This document shows, piece after piece, positions 15,102 to 23,660 of a stretch of 37,193 nt of DNA. The stretch spans positions 1-37,193 of the forward strand of contig NZ_JAIMAV010000020.1 of NCBI RefSeq assembly GCF_023511815.1, read 5' to 3'. The DNA is from Alicyclobacillus sp. (GTDB taxonomy: Bacteria > Bacillota > Bacilli > Alicyclobacillales > Alicyclobacillaceae). Within the stretch, counting starts at the first letter, position 1; every line of letters starts with the position of its first letter. The position numbers were made by a program, and so were the translations under genes. The notes below the pieces were generated by a model. That model had not been told where the DNA came from. It worked only from the letters and a program-made list of their open reading frames with translations, and searched no databases.

Positions 15102-15209
15102 TGGCGATCACCTCCGACACGAATATAAAATCCGAAAGAGGGGATCAATCTATAAATTCTACGGATTTTCTGCCGCTCCCTGCAGGGGACTGTGCGGAAA
15201 GAATTCCGG

Positions 15210-15239
15210 TTGACAGACCGCTTCTGCAATGACCATGAT
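15210..15239 (+). promoter_or_regulatory. Putative sigma-A promoter for the antiterminator gene
   Basis: A perfect TTGACA at 15210-15215 and CATGAT at 15234-15239 are separated by 18 bases, giving a transcript start about 35 bases before GTG 15281. The AT-rich stretch at 15120-15165 in the same divergent gap probably carries the opposing promoter of the symporter operon, but its boxes are unclear. Confidence 0.5.
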
Positions 15240-15280
15240 GCCCTTGACGCGAGCGTGATGCGTGAGGAGGCTCAGGTGGT

Positions 15281-16120
15281 GTGGCGTACCAAGTGAAGCG
15301 CGCACTGAACAATAACGTGGTTGTCGTCCGACCCGAGGCGGGAGAACGCGAAGAGATCTGGGTCGGCCGCGGCATCGGCTTCGGCGTTCGCCCCGGGTTG
15401 CCGCTGATGGCCGACGACCCGCGGGTGGAGCAACGTTTCGTGCTCGCGAATGAAGAACACCGAACGCGCTTTCGCCAACTGTTCACCGTGGTCGATCCCG
15501 TCGTGATTGGACTTGCCGAAGAGATCATCGCGCGAGCGGAGCGGGCGCTCGGACAGGCCCTGCACGAGCACATTCACGTGGCGCTGGCGGATCACATCGG
15601 TTTTGCCCTGGAGCGGCTGCGCGGCGGGTTGGAGGTGGACAACCCGTTCGTGGAGGAGTTGGAAGCGCTGTATCCGAGGCACTGGGCGGTGGCGGAAGAT
15701 GCCGCCGCGCTGATTGAGGATCGGTTCGGGATCCCCATCCCGCGCTCCGAGATCGGGTTTCTGACGCTGCACCTGCACGCCGCGTCCCAGGAGGGGGGAC
15801 TTCGCACCTCCGTTCGGGTGGCGGACGGGGTGAAGGCGGCGTTGGACGCCACCGAGGCCAACCTGGGGCATGCGCTGGAGCGGTCCAGCCTGGATCACCA
15901 GCGCCTGGTGACCCATCTGCGCTTCGCGATTCAGCGCGGGTTGCGCCGGGAGCAGGCGGACAATCCGCTCAAGGAAGCCATCCGGGAGCGCCTTCCGGAA
16001 AGCCACCGGGCGGCCGTCGCGGCGGCGAAGGCGGTGGCAGAGCGGATTCAGGTCGAGCTGCCGGAGGACGAGGTGGCGTACCTCGCCCTGCACATTGAGC
16101 GAATCCGCCGTCGCGGTTGA
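15281..16120 (+). CDS. PRD-containing transcriptional antiterminator, GlcT-like
   Basis: An RNA-binding antiterminator of the BglG/GlcT family, 279 residues. Residues 1-58 are the co-antiterminator domain (VKRALNNNVVVV, GRGIGFG). PRD1 and PRD2 follow, with the four expected regulatory histidines: His105 (DHIGFA), His164 (LTLHLH), His212 (THLRFA) and His271 (LALHIE). The family is phosphorylated by PTS proteins, so sugar flux controls binding to a leader RNA. GTG 15281 follows GAGGAGG. The RNA target (16159-16189) lies immediately downstream, before the IICB gene, and matches the GlcT/ptsG type of target. So the likely job is induction of this PTS operon when its sugar is present. Confidence 0.93.
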   Translation: MAYQVKRALNNNVVVVRPEAGEREEIWVGRGIGFGVRPGLPLMADDPRVEQRFVLANEEHRTRFRQLFTVVDPVVIGLAEEIIARAERALGQALHEHIHVALADHIGFALERLRGGLEVDNPFVEELEALYPRHWAVAEDAAALIEDRFGIPIPRSEIGFLTLHLHAASQEGGLRTSVRVADGVKAALDATEANLGHALERSSLDHQRLVTHLRFAIQRGLRREQADNPLKEAIRERLPESHRAAVAAAKAVAERIQVELPEDEVAYLALHIERIRRRG

Positions 16121-16158
16121 CGCCGCGCGGCGGGGCGTGCTATTCTCCCGGATGTAAG

Positions 16159-16189
16159 CGTGTTACTGTCGATGAGGGACAGGCATGAG
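16159..16189 (+). promoter_or_regulatory. Ribonucleic antiterminator (RAT), GlcT type
   Basis: The segment reads GCGTGTTACTG, a short spacer, then ACAGGCATGAG. From memory, this GTGTTACTG...CAGGCATGAG pattern is the conserved sequence of the GlcT target in ptsG leaders of Bacillus and Staphylococcus. Its 3' half overlaps the 5' arm of the terminator at 16177-16216, so the two structures exclude each other. Confidence 0.85.
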
Positions 16190-16216
16190 CTGACAAGGCT
16201 CGGCCTGTCCTTTTTT
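16177..16216 (+). terminator. Regulated Rho-independent leader terminator
   Basis: GGACAGGC (16177-16184) pairs with GCCTGTCC (16203-16210), with GAGC/GCTC extending the stem, and TTTTTT follows directly. It stops transcription between the antiterminator gene and the PTS genes unless the bound RAT prevents it. It probably also ends the antiterminator transcript. Confidence 0.92.
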
Positions 16217-16267
16217 CGTTGGCCGCCCCCATGAAGCGGATGCGACGGGCGGTGAGCGGATCGAACG

Positions 16268-16279
16268 GTAAGCGTTTAC
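16268..16279. promoter_or_regulatory. Candidate cre (CcpA) site in the PTS leader
   Basis: GTAAGCGTTTAC is a near-palindrome matching the central cre core (AA-G-CG-T) but lacking the full flanking TG. It lies between the terminator and the IICB start, where CcpA could act as a roadblock. Confidence 0.4.
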
Positions 16280-16329
16280 GGCGTCGCGGTTATCCAAATT
16301 CTACAGGTATGTGCAAAGGAGGGTCACGA

Positions 16330-17781
16330 ATGCTGGGACAACTGCAGCGGATTGGCAAGGCCCTGATGCTGCCCGTGGCGGTCCTGCCGGCGGCGGCCCT
16401 GCTGCTTCGGTTCGGACAGCCGGATTTGCTGAACATCCCGTTCATCGCCCAGGCGGGCAACGCCATCTTCGCCAATCTGGCGGTGATCTTCGCCATCGGC
16501 GTCGCCATCGGGCTCGCCAAGGGCAACCATGGGGCGGCGGGATTGGCCGGATTCATCGGATACGAGGTGTTGACGCAGGGCGCGCAGGCCATCAACAAGG
16601 ACATCAACATGGGCGTGCTCGGCGGCATCATCGCCGGGATTCTGGCGGGGTGGCTGTACAACCGCTTCCATCAGACGCGCCTGCCCGATTGGCTGGGTTT
16701 CTTCGGCGGGCGCCGGTTTGTGCCCATCGTCACCGCCGGAGCCGCCGTGGTGCTGGCTGCGGTGTTCGGGTACGTGTGGCCGTACGTGCAGGACGGGCTG
16801 GACGCGTTCGGCCACACCCTGACCACCATGGGCGCCTTCGGGGCGGCCATCTACGGGTTCCTCAACCGGTTGCTGATTCCGTTCGGATTGCATCACGTGC
16901 TCAACGCCTACATCTGGTTTGTGTACGGGACGTTCCACGGCAAGACGGGCGACCTGAACCGCTTCTTCGCGGGCGATCCGACCGCGGGCGGCTATATGGC
17001 CGGGTTCTACCCGATCTTCATGTTCGGGCTTCCGGCGGCTTGCCTGGCGATGATCCTGGCGGCGAAGAAGGAGCGGCGAGCGGCGGTGGCCGGTGTGCTG
17101 CTCAGCGCGGCGTTCGCGTCGTTCCTGACCGGGATCACGGAGCCCATCGAGTTCTCCTTCATGTTCCTGGCGCCGGCCCTGTACGCCCTGCACGCCGTGC
17201 TGACCGGGGTCAGCATGGGCGTGGCGTACGCCCTCGGCATCAAGCACGGGTTCGGGTTTTCCGCCGGTGCGATTGACTACTTCCTGAACATGCACCTTTC
17301 GACGCACGGGTGGTGGCTGTTGCCGCTCGGACTGGTGTTCGGCGTCGTGTACTTCGTCCTCTTCTACGTGTGCATCCGGGCCTTCGACATCAAGACACCG
17401 GGCCGGGAAGAGGAAGGGGAAGAAAAGGCGGGCGGCTTCACCCTGTTCGACGAAAACCAGCTGCGCCCGGCGGCCGCCACGGCGGGGGCCGTCGCCGCAG
17501 CGGGGGGCGCGGCCGGCGCCGCCCGCGCGGGGGACGCGTCCCTCGGGGAGAAGGCCGAGCGGTATCTGGCCGCGCTCGGCGGGCCGGAGAACATCCGCGA
17601 CATCGAGGGGTGTGTGACGCGGTTGCGGTTGACCGTGGTCCGGGCGGATCGACTGGATGAAACGGGATTGCGGCGGCTCGGCGCCACCGGCGTGATGAAG
17701 CTCGACGACGAGCACGTCCAGGTGGTGGTCGGGACCATCGCCGACATGCTGGCGGAGGAAATCCAAAAGCGATTGCGGTAA
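16330..17781 (+). CDS. nagE: PTS N-acetylglucosamine-type EIICB component
   Basis: The membrane permease/phosphotransferase (483 residues) that imports and phosphorylates the sugar. The EIIC domain (1-360) opens with MLGQLQRIGKALMLPVAVLP and contains IPFGLHHVLNAYIWF and GITEPIEFSFMF, typical of the glucose/GlcNAc family. An Ala/Gly-rich linker (about 385-405) precedes an EIIB domain with phosphocysteine Cys428 (IEGCVTRLRL). It lacks a fused IIA, which is supplied by the separate gene at 20832. ATG 16330 follows AAAGGAGGG at 6 bases; the longer open frame begins in the leader. GlcNAc specificity is inferred from the NagE-like IIC and from nagA in the same operon; glucose or glucosamine is possible. 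Confidence 0.88.
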   Translation: MLGQLQRIGKALMLPVAVLPAAALLLRFGQPDLLNIPFIAQAGNAIFANLAVIFAIGVAIGLAKGNHGAAGLAGFIGYEVLTQGAQAINKDINMGVLGGIIAGILAGWLYNRFHQTRLPDWLGFFGGRRFVPIVTAGAAVVLAAVFGYVWPYVQDGLDAFGHTLTTMGAFGAAIYGFLNRLLIPFGLHHVLNAYIWFVYGTFHGKTGDLNRFFAGDPTAGGYMAGFYPIFMFGLPAACLAMILAAKKERRAAVAGVLLSAAFASFLTGITEPIEFSFMFLAPALYALHAVLTGVSMGVAYALGIKHGFGFSAGAIDYFLNMHLSTHGWWLLPLGLVFGVVYFVLFYVCIRAFDIKTPGREEEGEEKAGGFTLFDENQLRPAAATAGAVAAAGGAAGAARAGDASLGEKAERYLAALGGPENIRDIEGCVTRLRLTVVRADRLDETGLRRLGATGVMKLDDEHVQVVVGTIADMLAEEIQKRLR

Positions 17782-17788
17782 ACTTTTG

Positions 17789-17819
17789 GGCGAGGCGGCG
17801 GCGGGGGATCCCGCTCGCC
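17789..17819 (+). repeat. Intergenic stem-loop after the EIICB gene
   Basis: GGCGA pairs with TCGCC, and GCGGG-GGAT-CCCGC forms the inner stem, with a bulge on the 5' side. There is no T tract. It may stabilise or process the message between the EIICB gene and the next gene. Confidence 0.35.
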
Positions 17820-17841
17820 GCGTTCGCATTGGAGGATGGCG

Positions 17842-18756
17842 ATGAAACGAATCCTGGACTGTCAGGCGAGCGATTTGTCGGCGCTGCGCGGGGACGCGCT
17901 GAAGCAGGCCATCCGGGCGGGCGAGGGTCGGACGCTCGTCGCCGAGGTGATTGGCAGCGTGCCGCCGCTGTTGGGGGATGTCTCGAACGCGGAGCTGGCG
18001 CGGGCGTGCGGCGCCGACCTCATCCTCCTCAACTGGTTCGACGTAGACCATCCGCGCGTGGAGGGCCTGCCGCAGCCGGAGGGCGACGAGGTGGTGGCGC
18101 ACCTGCGCAGGATGGTGGGACGGCCCGTCGGCATCAACCTGGAACCGGTCGATCCCGCCGCCCCCATGGCCGAAGACCGCACGGCCATTGCCCCCGGCCG
18201 GCGGCTGACGGCATCCTCGGCGGCGCGGGCGCGCGAGCTCGGGTTTGATTTCGTCTGTCTGACCGGAAACCCGAAAACGGGGGTGAGTCAGGACGCCATC
18301 GCGCACGGTATCGCCACGGTGCGGTCTGTCTGCGGCCAGGACCTGTTGGTCATCGCCGGCAAGATGCACGGGGCGGGGACGGCGGAGCGGTTCGATGCGG
18401 AGGGCTTGCGACATCTCGCCGCCCGCTTTGTCGATGCGGGCGCGGACGTGGTCCTGTTCCCGGCGCCGGGCACGGTTCCGGGCGTGACGAGGGAGGGCCT
18501 CCAGCCGGCCATCGAAGAGGTCCACCGCATGGGCGGGCTGGTGATGCTCACCGTCGGCACCTCGCAGGAGGGGGCCGATGAGGACACGGTGCGGCGGATT
18601 GCTCTCGAGAGCAAGATGGCGGGGGCGGACCTCTTCCACTTGGGCGACGCGGGGTACCCCGGAGTGGCCCTCCCGGAGAACCTGCTCGCGGCGTCCATCG
18701 CGCTGCGCGGCCGTCGTCACGCCTATCGGCGCATGGCGGCATCGGTCCTGCGCTGA
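17842..18756 (+). CDS. Conserved TIM-barrel-like protein of unknown function in the PTS operon
   Basis: I do not recognise a characterised family for this 304-residue soluble protein. Alternating strand-helix segments with polar strand ends (GADLILLNWFDVDHP, GFDFVCLTGNPKTG, DLLVIAGKMHG, GADVVLFPAPGT, GGLVMLTVGTSQ, GADLFHLGDAGYPG) suggest a beta/alpha barrel with a phosphate-binding or metal site near the LGDAG-type C-terminal loop. ATG 17842 is chosen because GGAGG lies 6 bases before it; ATG 17836 overlaps that site. Its place between the EIICB gene and ptsH suggests a cytoplasmic step on the imported sugar phosphate. From memory, relatives occur beside PTS genes in other Firmicutes, sometimes mislabelled as HAD hydrolases; it has no HAD motifs. 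Confidence 0.8.
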   Translation: MKRILDCQASDLSALRGDALKQAIRAGEGRTLVAEVIGSVPPLLGDVSNAELARACGADLILLNWFDVDHPRVEGLPQPEGDEVVAHLRRMVGRPVGINLEPVDPAAPMAEDRTAIAPGRRLTASSAARARELGFDFVCLTGNPKTGVSQDAIAHGIATVRSVCGQDLLVIAGKMHGAGTAERFDAEGLRHLAARFVDAGADVVLFPAPGTVPGVTREGLQPAIEEVHRMGGLVMLTVGTSQEGADEDTVRRIALESKMAGADLFHLGDAGYPGVALPENLLAASIALRGRRHAYRRMAASVLR

Positions 18757-18840
18757 CGGACGGTCCCGCCGACGCAACACCCTTCACCAGAGCGACATTC
18801 GTGCTTCATCAGACACGAGCGGGAAAAGGAGAGAACATCC

Positions 18841-19107
18841 ATGGTGGAACAGACGGTGACGTTGAAAAATCGCAGCGGCCTGCACGCACGTCCGGCGGCG
18901 CTGTTGGTGCAGGAGGCGGGCAAGCATCCGTGCAACCTGTGGATCCGCAAAGGGGACAAGGAGGTCGATGCCAAGAGCATCCTCGGGGTGATGTCGCTGG
19001 CGGTGGGCAGCGGCGAGACCATCACCGTCCGGGCCGACGGCCAGGGGGAGGAAGCGGCGCTCAAGGCCGTGGTGGACCTGATTGAGAGCGGGCTCGGTGA
19101 GGCGTGA
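18841..19107 (+). CDS. ptsH: Phosphocarrier protein HPr
   Basis: The general PTS phosphocarrier, 88 residues. It has phosphorylatable His15 in SGLHARPAA and the regulatory Ser46 in KSILGVMSL, both at canonical positions. Ser46 is the HPr kinase target used for CcpA-dependent catabolite control in Firmicutes. ATG 18841 follows AAAGGAGAGAAC. Its stop overlaps the ptsI start by one base (TGATG). Embedding ptsHI inside a sugar-specific operon may mean this is the cell's only HPr/EI set or a dedicated one; the window cannot tell. Confidence 0.97.
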   Translation: MVEQTVTLKNRSGLHARPAALLVQEAGKHPCNLWIRKGDKEVDAKSILGVMSLAVGSGETITVRADGQGEEAALKAVVDLIESGLGEA

Positions 19108-20816
19108 TGGCGGGCCGGACGCTTCAGGGGATCGGTGTCGCGCCGGGGGTCGCGGCCGGCCGGGCGGTGTGGCTGCGGCGGGAGGCCGGGGAGGTGCCGG
19201 TGCGCCGGCTCGGTGACAGCGAGGTGCAGGCGGAGCAGGAGCGCTTTCGCGCCGCCATCGACGCGGCGCGCCTGGAGATCACCGCCCTGCGCAAGCGGGT
19301 CGCCGCGGACGTGGGCCAAGCGGAGGCGCAGGTGTTCGACGCGCATCTCGCGTTTTTGGGCGATCCCGCTTACGCCGGCGAGATTGAGCGGAAAATCGCG
19401 GCGGACCGGGTGAACGCGGAGGCGGCCTGCCGGGAGGTGACGGAGGCGACGCGGGCGATGCTCGCGAGTCTGCCGGATGAGTATCTGGCGGCGCGCGCCG
19501 ACGACATCCGGGACGTGGGCGGGCGACTGATGCGGATCCTGCAGGGAGTGGCCGGGGTGGACCTGGCGCACCTGACGGAACCCACGGTGCTGGTCGCGGA
19601 CGAGCTGGTGCCCTCGGATCTGTCGGGGCTCCCGGCGCACGTGGTCGGGTTTGTGACGGCGCGGGGAAGCAAGACGGCGCACACCGCCATCCTGGCGCGG
19701 ACGATGCGTCTGCCCGCCGTGTACGGGCTCGGCGAGGCGGTGGAGGCCATCGCGGACGGGCGAATGCTGGTGGTGGATGGCGACGCCGGGCGCGTCGTGC
19801 TGGACCCGAGTGAGGATGAGGTGGAAGGGGTCCGGCGGGATCAACGTGCGCAGGCGGAACTGCGCGCACAGGCGGAGGCCCGGGCCAACGAACCGGCCGC
19901 CACACAGGACGGCAGGCGGATCGAGGTGTTCGCCAACATCGGCAAGCCACAGGACGCGGAGGCGGCGGTGGCGGCGGGGGCGGACGGCGTGGGGCTGTTC
20001 CGAACGGAGTTTCTGTACCTCGAGAACGACCACTGGCCGACCGAGGAGGAGCAGTACGACGCCTATCGGCGGGTGCTCGAAGCGTTCGGAGACAAACCGG
20101 TGATCATCCGCACGCTCGACATCGGCGGGGATAAGCGGTTGCCCTACGCCGAACTCCCGGTGGAGGAAAACCCGTTCCTCGGGCTTCGAGCGATCCGCTA
20201 TTGCCTCGCGAAGCCGGAGGTGTTTCGCACGCAGATCCGCGCGCTGCTGCGGGCGAGTGTGCACGGGAATCTGTGGATCATGTTCCCGATGGTCGAGAGC
20301 GTCAGCGAATTCCGCGCAGCCAGGGCGTTCGTGGCAGACTGCCGGGAGGAGCTGACGCAGGAGGGCGTCCGGATGGCGGCGGATGTGAAACTCGGGGTGA
20401 TGGTGGAGACGCCGGCGGCGGCGCTGACAGCCGATCTCCTCGCGCGCGAGGTCGACTTTTTCAGCATCGGGACCAACGACCTGACGCAGTACACGCTGGC
20501 GGCCGACCGCGGCAACGCGGACGTGGCGCATCTGTACGATCCCCTGCACCCCGCCGTCCTGCGTCTCATCCGCATGACCTGCGATGCGGCGGAGAACGCC
20601 GGCATCCCGGTCGGGATGTGCGGCGAGATGGCGGGCGATGCGGCGTTGACGGAGTTGCTCATCGGCCTCGGCCTGCAGGAGCTGTCGATGTCCTCGGCGT
20701 TCGTCGCGCTGGTGAAAGAGCGCGTTCGCGGCGTGGACGCGGGGCGGGCGCGGGAGCGGGCGGACAAGGCCGCGGCGGCGGAGACGCCGGATGCGGTACG
20801 CGAAGTCATTCGTTGA
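19107..20816 (+). CDS. ptsI: PEP-protein phosphotransferase (Enzyme I)
   Basis: Transfers phosphate from phosphoenolpyruvate to HPr. The 569-residue length is normal for EI. Active His192 lies in GSKTAHTAILART. The PEP-binding C-terminal barrel has RTEFLYL, ENPFLGLRAIRYCL, MFPMVESVSEFR and SIGTNDLTQYTLAADR, and the catalytic-cysteine motif MCGEMAGD. ATG 19107 overlaps the ptsH stop; GTG 19104 is an alternative start. The gene ends 15 bases before the IIA gene. Confidence 0.97.
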   Translation: MAGRTLQGIGVAPGVAAGRAVWLRREAGEVPVRRLGDSEVQAEQERFRAAIDAARLEITALRKRVAADVGQAEAQVFDAHLAFLGDPAYAGEIERKIAADRVNAEAACREVTEATRAMLASLPDEYLAARADDIRDVGGRLMRILQGVAGVDLAHLTEPTVLVADELVPSDLSGLPAHVVGFVTARGSKTAHTAILARTMRLPAVYGLGEAVEAIADGRMLVVDGDAGRVVLDPSEDEVEGVRRDQRAQAELRAQAEARANEPAATQDGRRIEVFANIGKPQDAEAAVAAGADGVGLFRTEFLYLENDHWPTEEEQYDAYRRVLEAFGDKPVIIRTLDIGGDKRLPYAELPVEENPFLGLRAIRYCLAKPEVFRTQIRALLRASVHGNLWIMFPMVESVSEFRAARAFVADCREELTQEGVRMAADVKLGVMVETPAAALTADLLAREVDFFSIGTNDLTQYTLAADRGNADVAHLYDPLHPAVLRLIRMTCDAAENAGIPVGMCGEMAGDAALTELLIGLGLQELSMSSAFVALVKERVRGVDAGRARERADKAAAAETPDAVREVIR

Positions 20817-20831
20817 GAGGGGGATGCGAGG

Positions 20832-21362
20832 GTGTTTTGGAACCGGCGAAAGACTCAGGTGAACGAGCGCGCGGCAGAGCCGGTTTGGCTGGAGGTTTTG
20901 GCGCCCTTCTCCGGCCGGCCGCTGCCGTTGGCGGAGGTGCCGGATCCCGTGTTCGCGCAGAAGATGGTGGGCGACGGTGCCGCGGTGGATCCGGATTCGG
21001 ACACGCTCGTCGCTCCGGTGGCGGGGACGCTGACGAACCTGTTTCCGACGGGCCACGCGGCGGGGATCACCACGGACGACGGACTGGAGATCCTCATTCA
21101 CATCGGCATGGACACGGTGGCGTTGAAGGGCGAAGGGTTCACGCCCATCGCGAGGCAGGGTGAGCGCGTGGAGGCGGGCCAGCCGCTGATCCGCATCGAC
21201 CTGGCGCATCTGCGGGGCGTGGCGAAGTCCCTGGTGACGCCGGTGGTGGTGACGAACCAGGGGCGGATCGCGGCGCTGGAGCTCGTGGCGAAGGGCCCGG
21301 TGACCTCCGGGCGAGATGTGCTCTTCCGCGTCCAGGTGCGACCGGAGGAAAACGGGGTGTGA
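20832..21362 (+). CDS. crr: PTS glucose-family EIIA component
   Basis: A soluble IIA of the glucose superfamily, 176 residues, delivering phosphate from HPr to the EIICB domain. It shows VLAPFSGRPLPL, then VVAPVAGT-like LVAPVAGTL, His75 (TGHAAGI) and the phosphorylated His90 in ILIHIGMDTV, with GEGF following. GTG 20832 is preceded by GAGGGGGATGCGAG. The last four bases (GTGA) overlap the nagA start. It supplies the IIA domain missing from the NagE-type EIICB. Confidence 0.95.
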   Translation: MFWNRRKTQVNERAAEPVWLEVLAPFSGRPLPLAEVPDPVFAQKMVGDGAAVDPDSDTLVAPVAGTLTNLFPTGHAAGITTDDGLEILIHIGMDTVALKGEGFTPIARQGERVEAGQPLIRIDLAHLRGVAKSLVTPVVVTNQGRIAALELVAKGPVTSGRDVLFRVQVRPEENGV

Positions 21363-22534
21363 GCGGCGCGGTGTGGTTTCACGGCGGACGCGTCGTGCGC
21401 CCGGAGGGCGTGATGGACCCCGGATGGGTCAGGGTTGAAGGCGGCCGGGTGTGCGAGACGGGCGGCGGGCCGCTGCCCGCGGAGGCCTCCGGGGCGGAGG
21501 TGGTGGACCTGGAAGGCGGATGGCTGGTGCCGGGGTTCATCGACCTGCACGTGCACGGCGGCGACGGCGCGGATGTGATGGACGGGCGCGCCCGCTCCAT
21601 CCACACCATCGCGCGTTTTCACGCCAGCCACGGCACGACCGCCTGGCTCCCGACGACGCTGACCGCGCCGTACGAGCGGCTGGAGGCCGCGGTGCGGGCG
21701 GTGGCCGAGGCGATGTCCGACGAACGCGAGGCGGCGGCGGGCGCGCGGGTGCTCGGCGTGCACCTGGAGGGCCCGTACCTGTCGCGGGAGCGGGTCGGGG
21801 CGCAGAATCCACAGTTCGTCCGTCCGCCCGATCCGTCCGAGTACGAGCGGCTCCTCGACCTGGTCCCGGGGCTGGTGAAGAAGATGACGATGGCGCCGGA
21901 GCTGCCGGGCGCCAGGCGGCTGATGGCGTGCCTGTGGGCGCGTGGGGCCATCCCATCCCTCGGGCACACGGACGCCTCGTTTGACCAGATGGCACAGGCG
22001 CTGGATGCGGGCCACTGCCACGGGACGCACCTGTTCAACGGCATGCGCGGGTTTCATCACCGGGACCCGGGCGCGGCCGGGGCGCTTTTGCTCAGTGCGG
22101 ATTCGGTGTGCGAGCTCATCGCGGACGGGGTGCATGTGCACGACGCGGCGATGCGCCTCGCGGTGCGCCTGCTCGGGCCGGACCGGGTGTGCCTCATCAC
22201 CGACGCCATGGCGGCGGCCGGCCGCCCGGATGGCCGGTACCAGCTCGGCGGTCTCGAGGTGACGGTGGAGGACGGTGTGGCGTATTTGACCCACGGGCAC
22301 AACCTGGCGGGCAGCACCCTGACCATGGACCGGGCGTTCGCCAACACCATGCGCCGGATCGGCGTCACCGCGCCGGAGGCGGTGCGGATGACGAGCACGA
22401 CGCCGGCGCGGGAGCTGGGGTTGGCGGGGCAAAAGGGCGACATCGCGCCGGGGTTCGACGCGGATCTGGTGTGGCTCGACGAGGCGCTCTCGGTGCGGGG
22501 GACATGGGTCGGCGGCAGACGGGTGCACGGATAA
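21359..22534 (+). CDS. nagA: N-acetylglucosamine-6-phosphate deacetylase
   Basis: Converts GlcNAc-6-phosphate to glucosamine-6-phosphate and acetate. The 391-residue amidohydrolase has the HVHGG motif after PGFIDL, HLEGPYL with its metal-binding Glu, SLGHTDAS, GTHLFNGM and catalytic Asp in ITDAMAAAG, all expected for NagA. GTG 21359 overlaps the IIA stop. It is the last PTS-linked gene and is followed 22 bases later by the PhzF-like gene. Glucosamine-6-phosphate deaminase (nagB) is not in the window, so the next step must be encoded elsewhere or by an unrecognised enzyme. The acetate released could also relate to the ActP-like carriers nearby (speculative). Confidence 0.95.
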   Translation: MSGAVWFHGGRVVRPEGVMDPGWVRVEGGRVCETGGGPLPAEASGAEVVDLEGGWLVPGFIDLHVHGGDGADVMDGRARSIHTIARFHASHGTTAWLPTTLTAPYERLEAAVRAVAEAMSDEREAAAGARVLGVHLEGPYLSRERVGAQNPQFVRPPDPSEYERLLDLVPGLVKKMTMAPELPGARRLMACLWARGAIPSLGHTDASFDQMAQALDAGHCHGTHLFNGMRGFHHRDPGAAGALLLSADSVCELIADGVHVHDAAMRLAVRLLGPDRVCLITDAMAAAGRPDGRYQLGGLEVTVEDGVAYLTHGHNLAGSTLTMDRAFANTMRRIGVTAPEAVRMTSTTPARELGLAGQKGDIAPGFDADLVWLDEALSVRGTWVGGRRVHG

Positions 22535-22556
22535 AAGGGACGGAGGGACGCCTCAG

Positions 22557-23483
22557 ATGGCATGGGAGATCTTTCACGTCGACGCTTTCACCGATCGGCC
22601 GTTCGGGGGGAATCCGGCCGGGGTGGTCCCCGACGCAGGGGGGCTGTCCGAGGACGAGATGCAGGCCATCGCCCGCGAGATGAATCTGTCGGAGACCGCC
22701 TTCCTCATCCCGCGGCGGGAAGCGGGAGAATTCACGATCCGCTACTTCACCCCGGCCGCGGAGGTGGCGTTCTGCGGGCACGCCACTCTCGGATCGGCGT
22801 GGCTGTTGGCGACCGAGGCCGGGTGGGCGGCGCGAACGGACCGGGTGGTGTTCCACACGAAGGCGGGAGTGGTCCCGGTGCGTTGGGAGACGGGGGCGGA
22901 CGGACGCGTGGCATCCGTGTTCATGGAGCAGGTCCGCCCCCAGGTGAAGCCCACCGGCGTCCACGGGGAGGCCATCGCCCGGCTGCTCGGGCTGACGGAA
23001 GCGGATGTCGATCCGCGCCACCCCCTCCGCCTGGCGTACACGGGCAACTGGGATCTTTTGGTCCCCGTTCGAACGCGCGCCGCAATCGACCGGGCGAGGC
23101 CGGATTTCAACGCGCTGGCGGAGGTCAACCGGGCGGAGGGGGTCATCTCGACCCATCTGTTCACCTTCGATGAAACGGGCGCCCGATTGCCCGATGGTTC
23201 CAAGGATTACGACGTGTACACGCGGGATTTCTCCCCGGCGGTGGGCGTGCCGGAGGACCCGGTGACCGGGTCGGCCAGCGGCGCGCTGGGCGGGTATCTG
23301 GTGTTGGAGGGGATCCTGCCGGCCAACCGGACACACCAGGTGGTCATGGCTCAGGGGGACGCCATCGGGCGCCCGGGGCGGGTGGTGGTGCGCATTCATC
23401 CGGATGCGCAGGGACCGCGCATTGAGGTGGGGGGCAGGGCGGTTGTCACCATCGCGGGCCGGCTCCGGAGCCGTCTTTCGTGA
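22557..23483 (+). CDS. PhzF-family isomerase/epimerase-like protein
   Basis: A 308-residue protein of the PhzF/YddE superfamily (diaminopimelate-epimerase fold). Hallmarks are HVDAFTDRPFGGNPAGVV at the N-terminus, catalytic-position Glu46 (NLSETAFL), RYFTPAAEVAFCGHATLG and DPVTGSASGAL near the C-terminus. PhzF itself isomerises a phenazine precursor, but most members have no known substrate, and no phenazine genes are present. ATG 22557 follows GGAGGG by 9 bases. It closely follows nagA and may be co-transcribed. The following 168-base gap contains a new promoter. Confidence 0.9.
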   Translation: MAWEIFHVDAFTDRPFGGNPAGVVPDAGGLSEDEMQAIAREMNLSETAFLIPRREAGEFTIRYFTPAAEVAFCGHATLGSAWLLATEAGWAARTDRVVFHTKAGVVPVRWETGADGRVASVFMEQVRPQVKPTGVHGEAIARLLGLTEADVDPRHPLRLAYTGNWDLLVPVRTRAAIDRARPDFNALAEVNRAEGVISTHLFTFDETGARLPDGSKDYDVYTRDFSPAVGVPEDPVTGSASGALGGYLVLEGILPANRTHQVVMAQGDAIGRPGRVVVRIHPDAQGPRIEVGGRAVVTIAGRLRSRLS

Positions 23484-23519
23484 TGGGCGTGGACCTGTGA
23501 CCGCTCCCCCGAATTTTGG

Positions 23520-23567
23520 TTCTCGTTAAGAGAAATGGGACAAATCCGCTCGCTCTTCGTGTAATAT
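23520..23567 (+). promoter_or_regulatory. Promoter region with TTCTC-N5-GAGAA inverted repeat
   Basis: TTCTC GTTAA GAGAA (23520-23534) is an inverted repeat, followed by a good -10 box TAATAT at 23562-23567; no strong -35 is visible. It precedes the acyl-CoA synthetase operon and could be the site of a TetR- or GntR-type fatty-acid regulator. No regulator gene lies nearby. Confidence 0.4.
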
Positions 23568-23660
23568 GTACGGTAGAGAGAAGAGAGAGCGGCCCGGCGC
23601 CGCGGTGGAGAGAGTCGTTTCACGCACCCACGACCCCTCGCAAAGGAGTGCGTGAAGGGC

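Follow-up and report, generated by a model that had tools for sequence, protein, structure and literature searches.

The window, the whole stretch of 37,193 nucleotides analysed here (contig NZ_JAIMAV010000020.1 of an Alicyclobacillus genome of 3.0 Mb, 165 contigs and 99.3% completeness), carries a PTS operon of N-acetylglucosamine type in which a gene of the family DUF7916 stands between the permease gene and ptsH. Genes were scored against Pfam and NCBIfam models. The features are as follows.

15281..16120, forward strand: GlcT/LicT-like PRD antiterminator gene (PF00874, two PRD, and PF03123 CAT_RBD, over cut-off)
16160..16216, forward strand: leader with a possible RAT-like target overlapping a terminator hairpin (16175-16212, with T run)
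16331..17781, forward strand: nagE-type PTS IICB for N-acetylglucosamine (TIGR01998, 587 bits, cut-off 553.2)
17842..18756, forward strand: DUF7916 protein of 304 residues, TIM barrel in the AlphaFold2 model (PF25509, 410.8 bits; GGAGG at 17831-17835)
18841..19107, forward strand: ptsH, HPr (TIGR01003, 100 bits, cut-off 47.9)
19104..20816, forward strand: ptsI, EI (TIGR01417, 611 bits, cut-off 341.7)
20832..21362, forward strand: PTS IIA, glucose type (PF00358, 163.2 bits, cut-off 27.2)
21359..22534, forward strand: nagA (TIGR00221, 309.3 bits, cut-off 225.65)

Scores over the NCBIfam and Pfam cut-offs bear out the operon of IICB, HPr, EI, IIA and NagA described in the initial annotation, from which the antiterminator gene and the leader terminator at the operon head were absent. 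The IICB start at ATG 16331 was chosen from the upstream AAGGAGGG. The antiterminator gene scored 254.2 bits with the NCBIfam GlcT model, under its cut-off of 320. The leader hairpin (-31.6 kcal/mol, z -3.93, none of 200 shuffles as stable) is kept in Alicyclobacillus macrosporangiidus. The overlapping segment may be a RAT-like antiterminator target; Rfam gave no match within 15200-23600. Because hairpin and possible target follow a GlcT-like gene, the arrangement points to antitermination of the operon under PTS control. A second element at 16267-16281, GGTAAGCGTTTACGG, is likewise kept in A. macrosporangiidus, and we take it to resemble a catabolite response element. After nagA, a PhzF-family gene (22557-23483) lies on the same strand and is present in A. 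macrosporangiidus too.

Predicted fold and conserved residues

The DUF7916 gene is an open frame of 304 codons. GGAGG at 17831-17835 stands six bases before ATG 17842, which was therefore favoured over ATG 17836. PF25509 matched the protein with E 3.5e-123 (cut-off 27 bits), residues 5-304 lying on model positions 1-296 of 296, and was its sole Pfam match at E <= 0.01. A. macrosporangiidus shares the gene order and has a protein of 81% identity; together with the full-length PF25509 match, this places the gene above chance as a real one. At E <= 0.01 the protein had no match to the NagB models PF01182 and TIGR00502 (Pfam, NCBIfam), to NanE (PF04131), to the PEP mutase / isocitrate lyase superfamily (PF13714) or to BtpA (PF03437), and no HAD superfamily hydrolase model matched in Pfam. 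A match to MslH in NCBIfam (E 2.6e-5, 22.8 bits against a cut-off of 700) was taken as chance. Family members bear the public names 'haloacid dehalogenase-like hydrolase', 'PEP phosphonomutase', 'DUF7916 family protein' and 'hypothetical protein'. The label 'uncharacterised' in the initial annotation holds for the family name, as a literature search found no paper containing DUF7916 or PF25509; it does not hold for a distant member, identified by gene order, which is in print as lmo0737.

AlphaFold2, run with a 23-sequence alignment, predicted an eight-stranded TIM barrel (pLDDT 90.0, pTM 0.91). Frame, neighbour profiles and this model thus agree with the barrel-like 304-residue protein that had been proposed between the EIICB gene and ptsH. 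A fold search of the model gave many nearly tied barrel matches (homocysteine methyltransferases Z 18.8, MJ1099/MfnB 17.4, methylisocitrate lyases about 16-17), so the fold is fixed and the function is not. By sequence the family is isolated. With the single protein as query, the best match among solved structures had E 0.42; with the DUF7916 profile it was NanE at E 0.0095, and no ligand-bound relative with clear sequence similarity was found among them. Profile comparison with hhalign gave 78% for NanE, 48% for BtpA, 48% for PEP mutase and 19% for homocysteine methyltransferase; a control pairing of two other barrel families gave 16%.

NanE is a TIM barrel acting on N-acetylhexosamine 6-phosphate. 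On this profile similarity, DUF7916 might be a NanE-like 2-epimerase interconverting ManNAc-6-P and GlcNAc-6-P, which would let the same PTS operon use ManNAc. NanE ranked first both among solved structures and among the four families compared, and the genome of the window has no NanE over cut-off. The profile alignment, however, is local only and shifted by two strands, and family members serve a D-allose operon (see below). NanE is also no rarer where DUF7916 is present (12/39 genomes, against 7 of the 41 compared out of 57 NagE-positive genomes without DUF7916; p 0.19). Replacement of NanE by DUF7916, with no such avoidance in the phylogenetic profile, was kept only as a weak rival, and we consider the 2-epimerase reading improbable.

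In an HMM alignment of 123 distinct full-length sequences, N64, E101, N143, S241 and D269 (at or just after strand ends) were invariant, and so were E28, R30, E51, D59, K258 and D263. Position 174 is K in 118 sequences and R in five, which makes a Schiff-base aldolase acting through K174 less likely; K258, although invariant, is part of the helix preceding strand 8.

Permease partners, spread and nagB

For the genome panel, 398 Bacillota were searched; DUF7916 matched in 43 and passed the cut-off in 39, three of which (G176, G244, G359) hold split or decayed copies only. These sites are G359:C38 (L141), G176:C35 and C37, and G244:C35. A NagE-type match (TIGR01998, E <= 0.001) was present in 39/39 DUF7916 genomes and 57/359 others (p 7e-28), and one over cut-off in 27/39 and 15/359 (p 4e-22), both p-values overstating the significance because the genomes are related; matches under cut-off may be related glucose permeases. 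In several of the 12 DUF7916 genomes without an over-cut-off match, IIC and IIB are separate genes, and the matches of G176 and G250 are weak or partial.

Around the best 80 of at least 474 confirmed relatives, picked by query similarity and leaning to Bacilli, a NagE-type gene lay within 10 kb at 37 loci and within 1 kb on the same strand at 30. Among 123 full-length genes, the partner within 3 kb was NagE-type for 62, a Lac-family IIC for nine and an allose operon for two; 50 had none of the tested partners, which is an upper bound (several loci have a flank of 1.5 kb only). Examples of gene order are glcT-IIC-IIB-IIA-DUF7916, followed by HPr-EI or nagB-HPr, and, in Anoxybacillus, nagA, nagB, GntR, nagE, DUF7916.

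NagE-linked members were scattered over the DUF7916 tree (21 changes, at least nine forced by starred branches), with the label still more clustered than in shuffles (mean 41.3). In a tree of 70 NagE sequences, linked and unlinked permeases were mixed (13 changes, at least nine forced by starred branches), again more clustered than in shuffles (mean 18.8; 0/500 as low); here 'linked' means within 3.5 kb, and L141 (a remnant), L180 and L213 (DUF7916 further off) were counted as unlinked. The mixed NagE tree speaks against DUF7916 as the mark of one odd transporter type. The link thus arose or disappeared repeatedly, and with more than one GlcNAc-type permease, which points to a common substrate and not to one hitch-hiking pair.

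Some loci depart from the common layout. Four loci of one genus (L134, L135, L136, L137) have DUF7916 frames of 374-477 codons with a match span of 1053-1191 bases, that is with inserted or extra sequence. In Citrobacter freundii (L088) and two Atlantibacter (L097, L102), DUF7916 stands alone between purB-like and phoP-phoQ-like genes (named by eye). At L177 (G381:C8), a Lac-family PTS cluster with DUF7916 is accompanied by a sugar isomerase-domain protein, a GH4-like gene, a second nagB and a glycyl radical enzyme.

DUF7916 was also found beyond Bacillota, in Gammaproteobacteria, one Synergistota genome and one Treponema MAG. Plasmid records with a match numbered 221 (187 Enterococcus, 28 Escherichia), and a Vagococcus plasmid carries the gene as well. 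In E. coli the match occurred in 30/5,426 genomes, every time on a plasmid; five matches span the greater part of the gene, and the short matches, among those listed, cover 19% of it. The five near-full records also carry an IIBC annotated nagE, which in the one record examined is marked incomplete and preceded by a GntR regulator; a nagE is normally present on the E. coli chromosome itself (shown for K-12). E. faecium plasmids have the order GntR - SIS protein - lacD - DUF7916 - Lac-family IIC, the SIS protein reaching 417 bits with the AgaS family model, short of the 529 cut-off. In E. durans the genes are GntR and DUF7916 - IIC. On a second E. faecium plasmid type, DUF7916 follows genes annotated beta-N-acetylhexosaminidase, GH2 and O-GlcNAcase; going by these annotations, the hexosaminidase and O-GlcNAcase neighbours would count as an independent link of DUF7916 to GlcNAc.

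The Lac-family cassettes bear on a further alternative. MupG is a phospho-glycosidase, and by analogy DUF7916 might split a phosphorylated N-acetylglucosaminide imported by the permease; on the Enterococcus plasmids it adjoins Lac-family permeases with no other glycosidase among the annotated neighbours. Against this, DUF7916 is present even where the operon has a GH1 or GH4-like gene, and GlcNAc IICB permeases make up most of the partners. With the growth data from Listeria given below, this alternative appears quite improbable.

The initial annotation had suggested that DUF7916 replaces a missing nagB and so deaminates glucosamine 6-phosphate. The absence stands for the contig of the window, where Glucosamine_iso (PF01182) had no match, and fails for the organism: the genome-wide search it had proposed found a normal nagB at C96:2138-2815 (TIGR00502, 252.3 bits, cut-off 236.9). 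A second NagB-like domain (112 bits, below cut-off) lies on contig C85 in a 737-codon frame at about 19971-22184, NagB-like in its first part and NagA-like in its second (185.8 bits), both below cut-offs. The frame preceding it resembles neutral ceramidase (named by eye).

In the phylogenetic profile, nagB (TIGR00502, E <= 0.001) was matched in 37/39 DUF7916 genomes and 155/359 others, and nagA (TIGR00221) in 39/39 DUF7916 genomes. The two DUF7916 genomes without a nagB match are the assemblies G362 (270 contigs, 92% complete) and G366 (320 contigs, 91% complete). Among NagE-positive genomes nagB was commoner with DUF7916 than without (37/39 vs 43/57; p 0.013, too small since the genomes are related), so no avoidance was seen. 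Of the 80 loci described above, 19 had nagB and 21 had nagA within 10 kb. Family members in genomes lacking amino-sugar genes had also been named as evidence that would speak against a substitute; in Bacillota this pattern was not found (nagA in 39/39). The small allose-type clade does lie in operons that are not of amino-sugar type. With one family member serving a D-allose operon besides, the substitute role is nearly excluded, and DUF7916 is not a deaminase.

With the pathway complete in DUF7916 genomes, DUF7916 is an extra gene on top of it. In G359 (C38, L141) a DUF7916 remnant is flanked by an intact nagE on one side and nagA-nagB on the other, so that loss of the gene need not take the pathway with it. 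An accessory gene of this kind could also serve house-cleaning, removing or repairing a sugar-phosphate side product formed while the PTS runs, outside the main flux. The members away from PTS genes, at the three enterobacterial loci and among the 50/123, fit this, as does the mild effect of losing lmo0737 described below. The tight pairing with permeases in mobile cassettes suggests instead a role on the imported sugar itself, and we know of no candidate side product. Side-product repair is the strongest rival, though an unlikely one; the NanE-like, phospho-glycosidase and non-catalytic readings are less likely.

The allose-type clade

The most divergent DUF7916 clade (branch length 1.72) lies in operons of a different kind. 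The order is LacI, rpe, rpiB, DUF7916, PTS, GH1 in Listeria monocytogenes and LacI, rpe, rpiB, PTS, DUF7916 on the Vagococcus plasmid. Two further genomes combine DUF7916 with Lac-family PTS, rpe, rpiB and GH1 genes, partly named by eye (in G414 a LevR-like gene, PTS, rpe, rpiB and GH1). OR846795.1 (L193), deposited as a Listeria phage, holds the D-allose operon together with ABC transporter genes; the record appears to be host chromosome. The Listeria member (326.1 bits with DUF7916 in Pfam) would, by gene order only, be lmo0737 of the D-allose cassette lmo0734-0739.

lmo0737 is a serogroup PCR marker. According to PMC5893763, lmo0734-0736 are essential for growth on D-allose. The growth rate reported there was 0.1504 OD/h with all six genes, 0.1082 OD/h with the cassette lacking lmo0737, 0.1055 OD/h without the PTS gene lmo0738 and 0.1486 OD/h without lmo0739. 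Its authors assign lmo0737 to the TIM phosphate-binding superfamily and suppose that it acts much like a kinase. In PMC11323731, deletion of lmo0737 left the in vivo phenotype of an alsR mutant unchanged. By these rates lmo0737 is helpful and non-essential on D-allose; the Listeria constructs may have had a polar effect on the gene that follows.

Three alternatives are touched by these rates. Slower growth in place of lost growth (PMC5893763) agrees with house-cleaning. A phospho-glycosidase fits poorly, since in the same paper the Listeria member matters on free D-allose and the GH1 gene does not. The similar rates on loss of lmo0737 and of the PTS gene would also suit a non-catalytic partner, a sensor of the sugar phosphate that regulates or aids the permease. 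That similarity may, however, be a polar effect; the barrel mouth, with its many invariant polar residues, has the look of an active site, and for up to 50/123 members none of the tested PTS genes lies within 3 kb. A non-catalytic role is hardly probable.

For the pocket comparison, 121 amino-sugar-type and four allose-type sequences were aligned with MAFFT. From the first to the second type the conserved letters change as E35Q, N99Y, P102C, T141G, V148T, M175W, H176E, F196L, T211S, Q242V and H266A; N64, N143, S241, E243, D269, E279 and N280 are unchanged. K174 is kept in the allose type and is R in 5/121 of the amino-sugar type. E101 is E in all 121 amino-sugar-type sequences and in 123/123 of the HMM alignment, but was left out of the shared core because MAFFT places G there in two of the four allose-type sequences. 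Strand-end zones, set from the secondary structure of the predicted model, hold 10/11 switched conserved sites against 17/41 shared ones (Fisher p 0.005), a result that is suggestive only because the two clades form one contrast (one event). On the predicted model, a pocket switch around the shared core N64, N143, K174, S241, E243 and D269 suggests one chemistry on two sugars. All 121 amino-sugar-type sequences, the Lac-family-linked ones included, keep E35, H176, Q242 and H266, so that the Lac-family permeases beside DUF7916 may also carry N-acetylhexosamine sugars.

Possible function and known systems

Predicted fold, strand-end residues and the linkage to GlcNAc-type PTS support the earlier proposal of a TIM-barrel sugar-phosphate enzyme, probably acting on an amino-sugar derivative. 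The reading that we favour, tentatively and on the predicted model, is that DUF7916 is a TIM-barrel partner enzyme of PTS permeases that acts on the delivered hexose 6-phosphate and aids its entry to the NagA/NagB route. The NagE-type permease would deliver N-acetylglucosamine 6-phosphate, which DUF7916 may bind at the C-terminal mouth of the barrel; candidates for acid/base, phosphate or ring contacts are D269, E243 and K174. The reaction would help GlcNAc-6-P to enter NagA and then NagB, encoded here at another locus. The substrate is probably the hexose 6-phosphate of the partner permease, in this operon GlcNAc-6-P. For the reaction, isomerisation or epimerisation of the sugar-phosphate ring is put forward with some reserve. 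Its special case, anomer exchange at C1 as by a mutarotase, is the simplest ring isomerisation and is favoured as the case best fitting the contexts; taken by itself it is rather unlikely.

From the permease product to fructose or tagatose phosphate, the GlcNAc, AgaS/LacD-like and D-allose routes seem complete without DUF7916, the AgaS/LacD-like one on the assumption of host genes. The permease product in all three settings is an aldohexose 6-phosphate. An enzyme that conditions the product fits these settings, since it would act on such an aldohexose 6-phosphate beside a route that seems complete. Such an enzyme should bind hexose 6-phosphates, depend on the sugar substituents, and speed growth without being essential. 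Counted against the favoured reading are the up to 50/123 relatives without a tested partner gene within 3 kb, and the rate reported in PMC5893763 on loss of lmo0738, the same as for lmo0737, which also fits a role in PTS function in place of catalysis.

A more specific statement, that the family consists of TIM-barrel anomerases or other ring isomerases of hexose 6-phosphates working with PTS permeases, with one pocket type for N-acetylhexosamine and the other allose-type, is doubtful. If it were true, PTS operons would commonly hold a dedicated product-conditioning step that is missing from textbook schemes. PTS-dependent use of GlcNAc is usually drawn as permease, NagA and NagB, and a conserved further enzyme accompanying the permease would add a step to this three-part scheme. 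The residue switch offers a direct test of the substrate. The family would further include, by gene order, the Listeria serogroup marker lmo0737, the function of which is only guessed in PMC5893763.

Known systems resemble the protein to different degrees. Homocysteine methyltransferases and MJ1099 (MfnB) were the top fold matches (Z 18.8 and 17.4). Homocysteine S-methyltransferases have conserved zinc-binding cysteines; with PF02574 the profile similarity (19%) is near the control level (16%), and no cysteine occurs in the invariant or nearly invariant alignment columns. MfnB works with catalytic lysines, and its likeness is one of fold. 'PEP phosphonomutase' and 'haloacid dehalogenase-like hydrolase' are names borne by plasmid relatives, and both functional names look wrong because there is no HAD or PEP_mutase Pfam match and the predicted fold is a TIM barrel. 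NanE, the ManNAc-6-P 2-epimerase (PF04131), shows the best, weak, profile similarity, but its Pfam model does not match the protein at E <= 0.01; it aligns locally with the two-strand shift, and is found together with DUF7916 in 12/39 genomes. With Pfam DUF7916, a family without assigned function, the protein shares the full-length match and the same conserved residues as the 121 amino-sugar-type relatives, with no differences. The putative lmo0737 belongs to the same Pfam family, likewise adjoins a PTS permease and is placed in the TIM superfamily by its authors also (PMC5893763); it differs in its 33% identity to the window protein, in its allose operon with rpe and rpiB, and in the pocket letters Q35, Y99, E176, V242 and A266.
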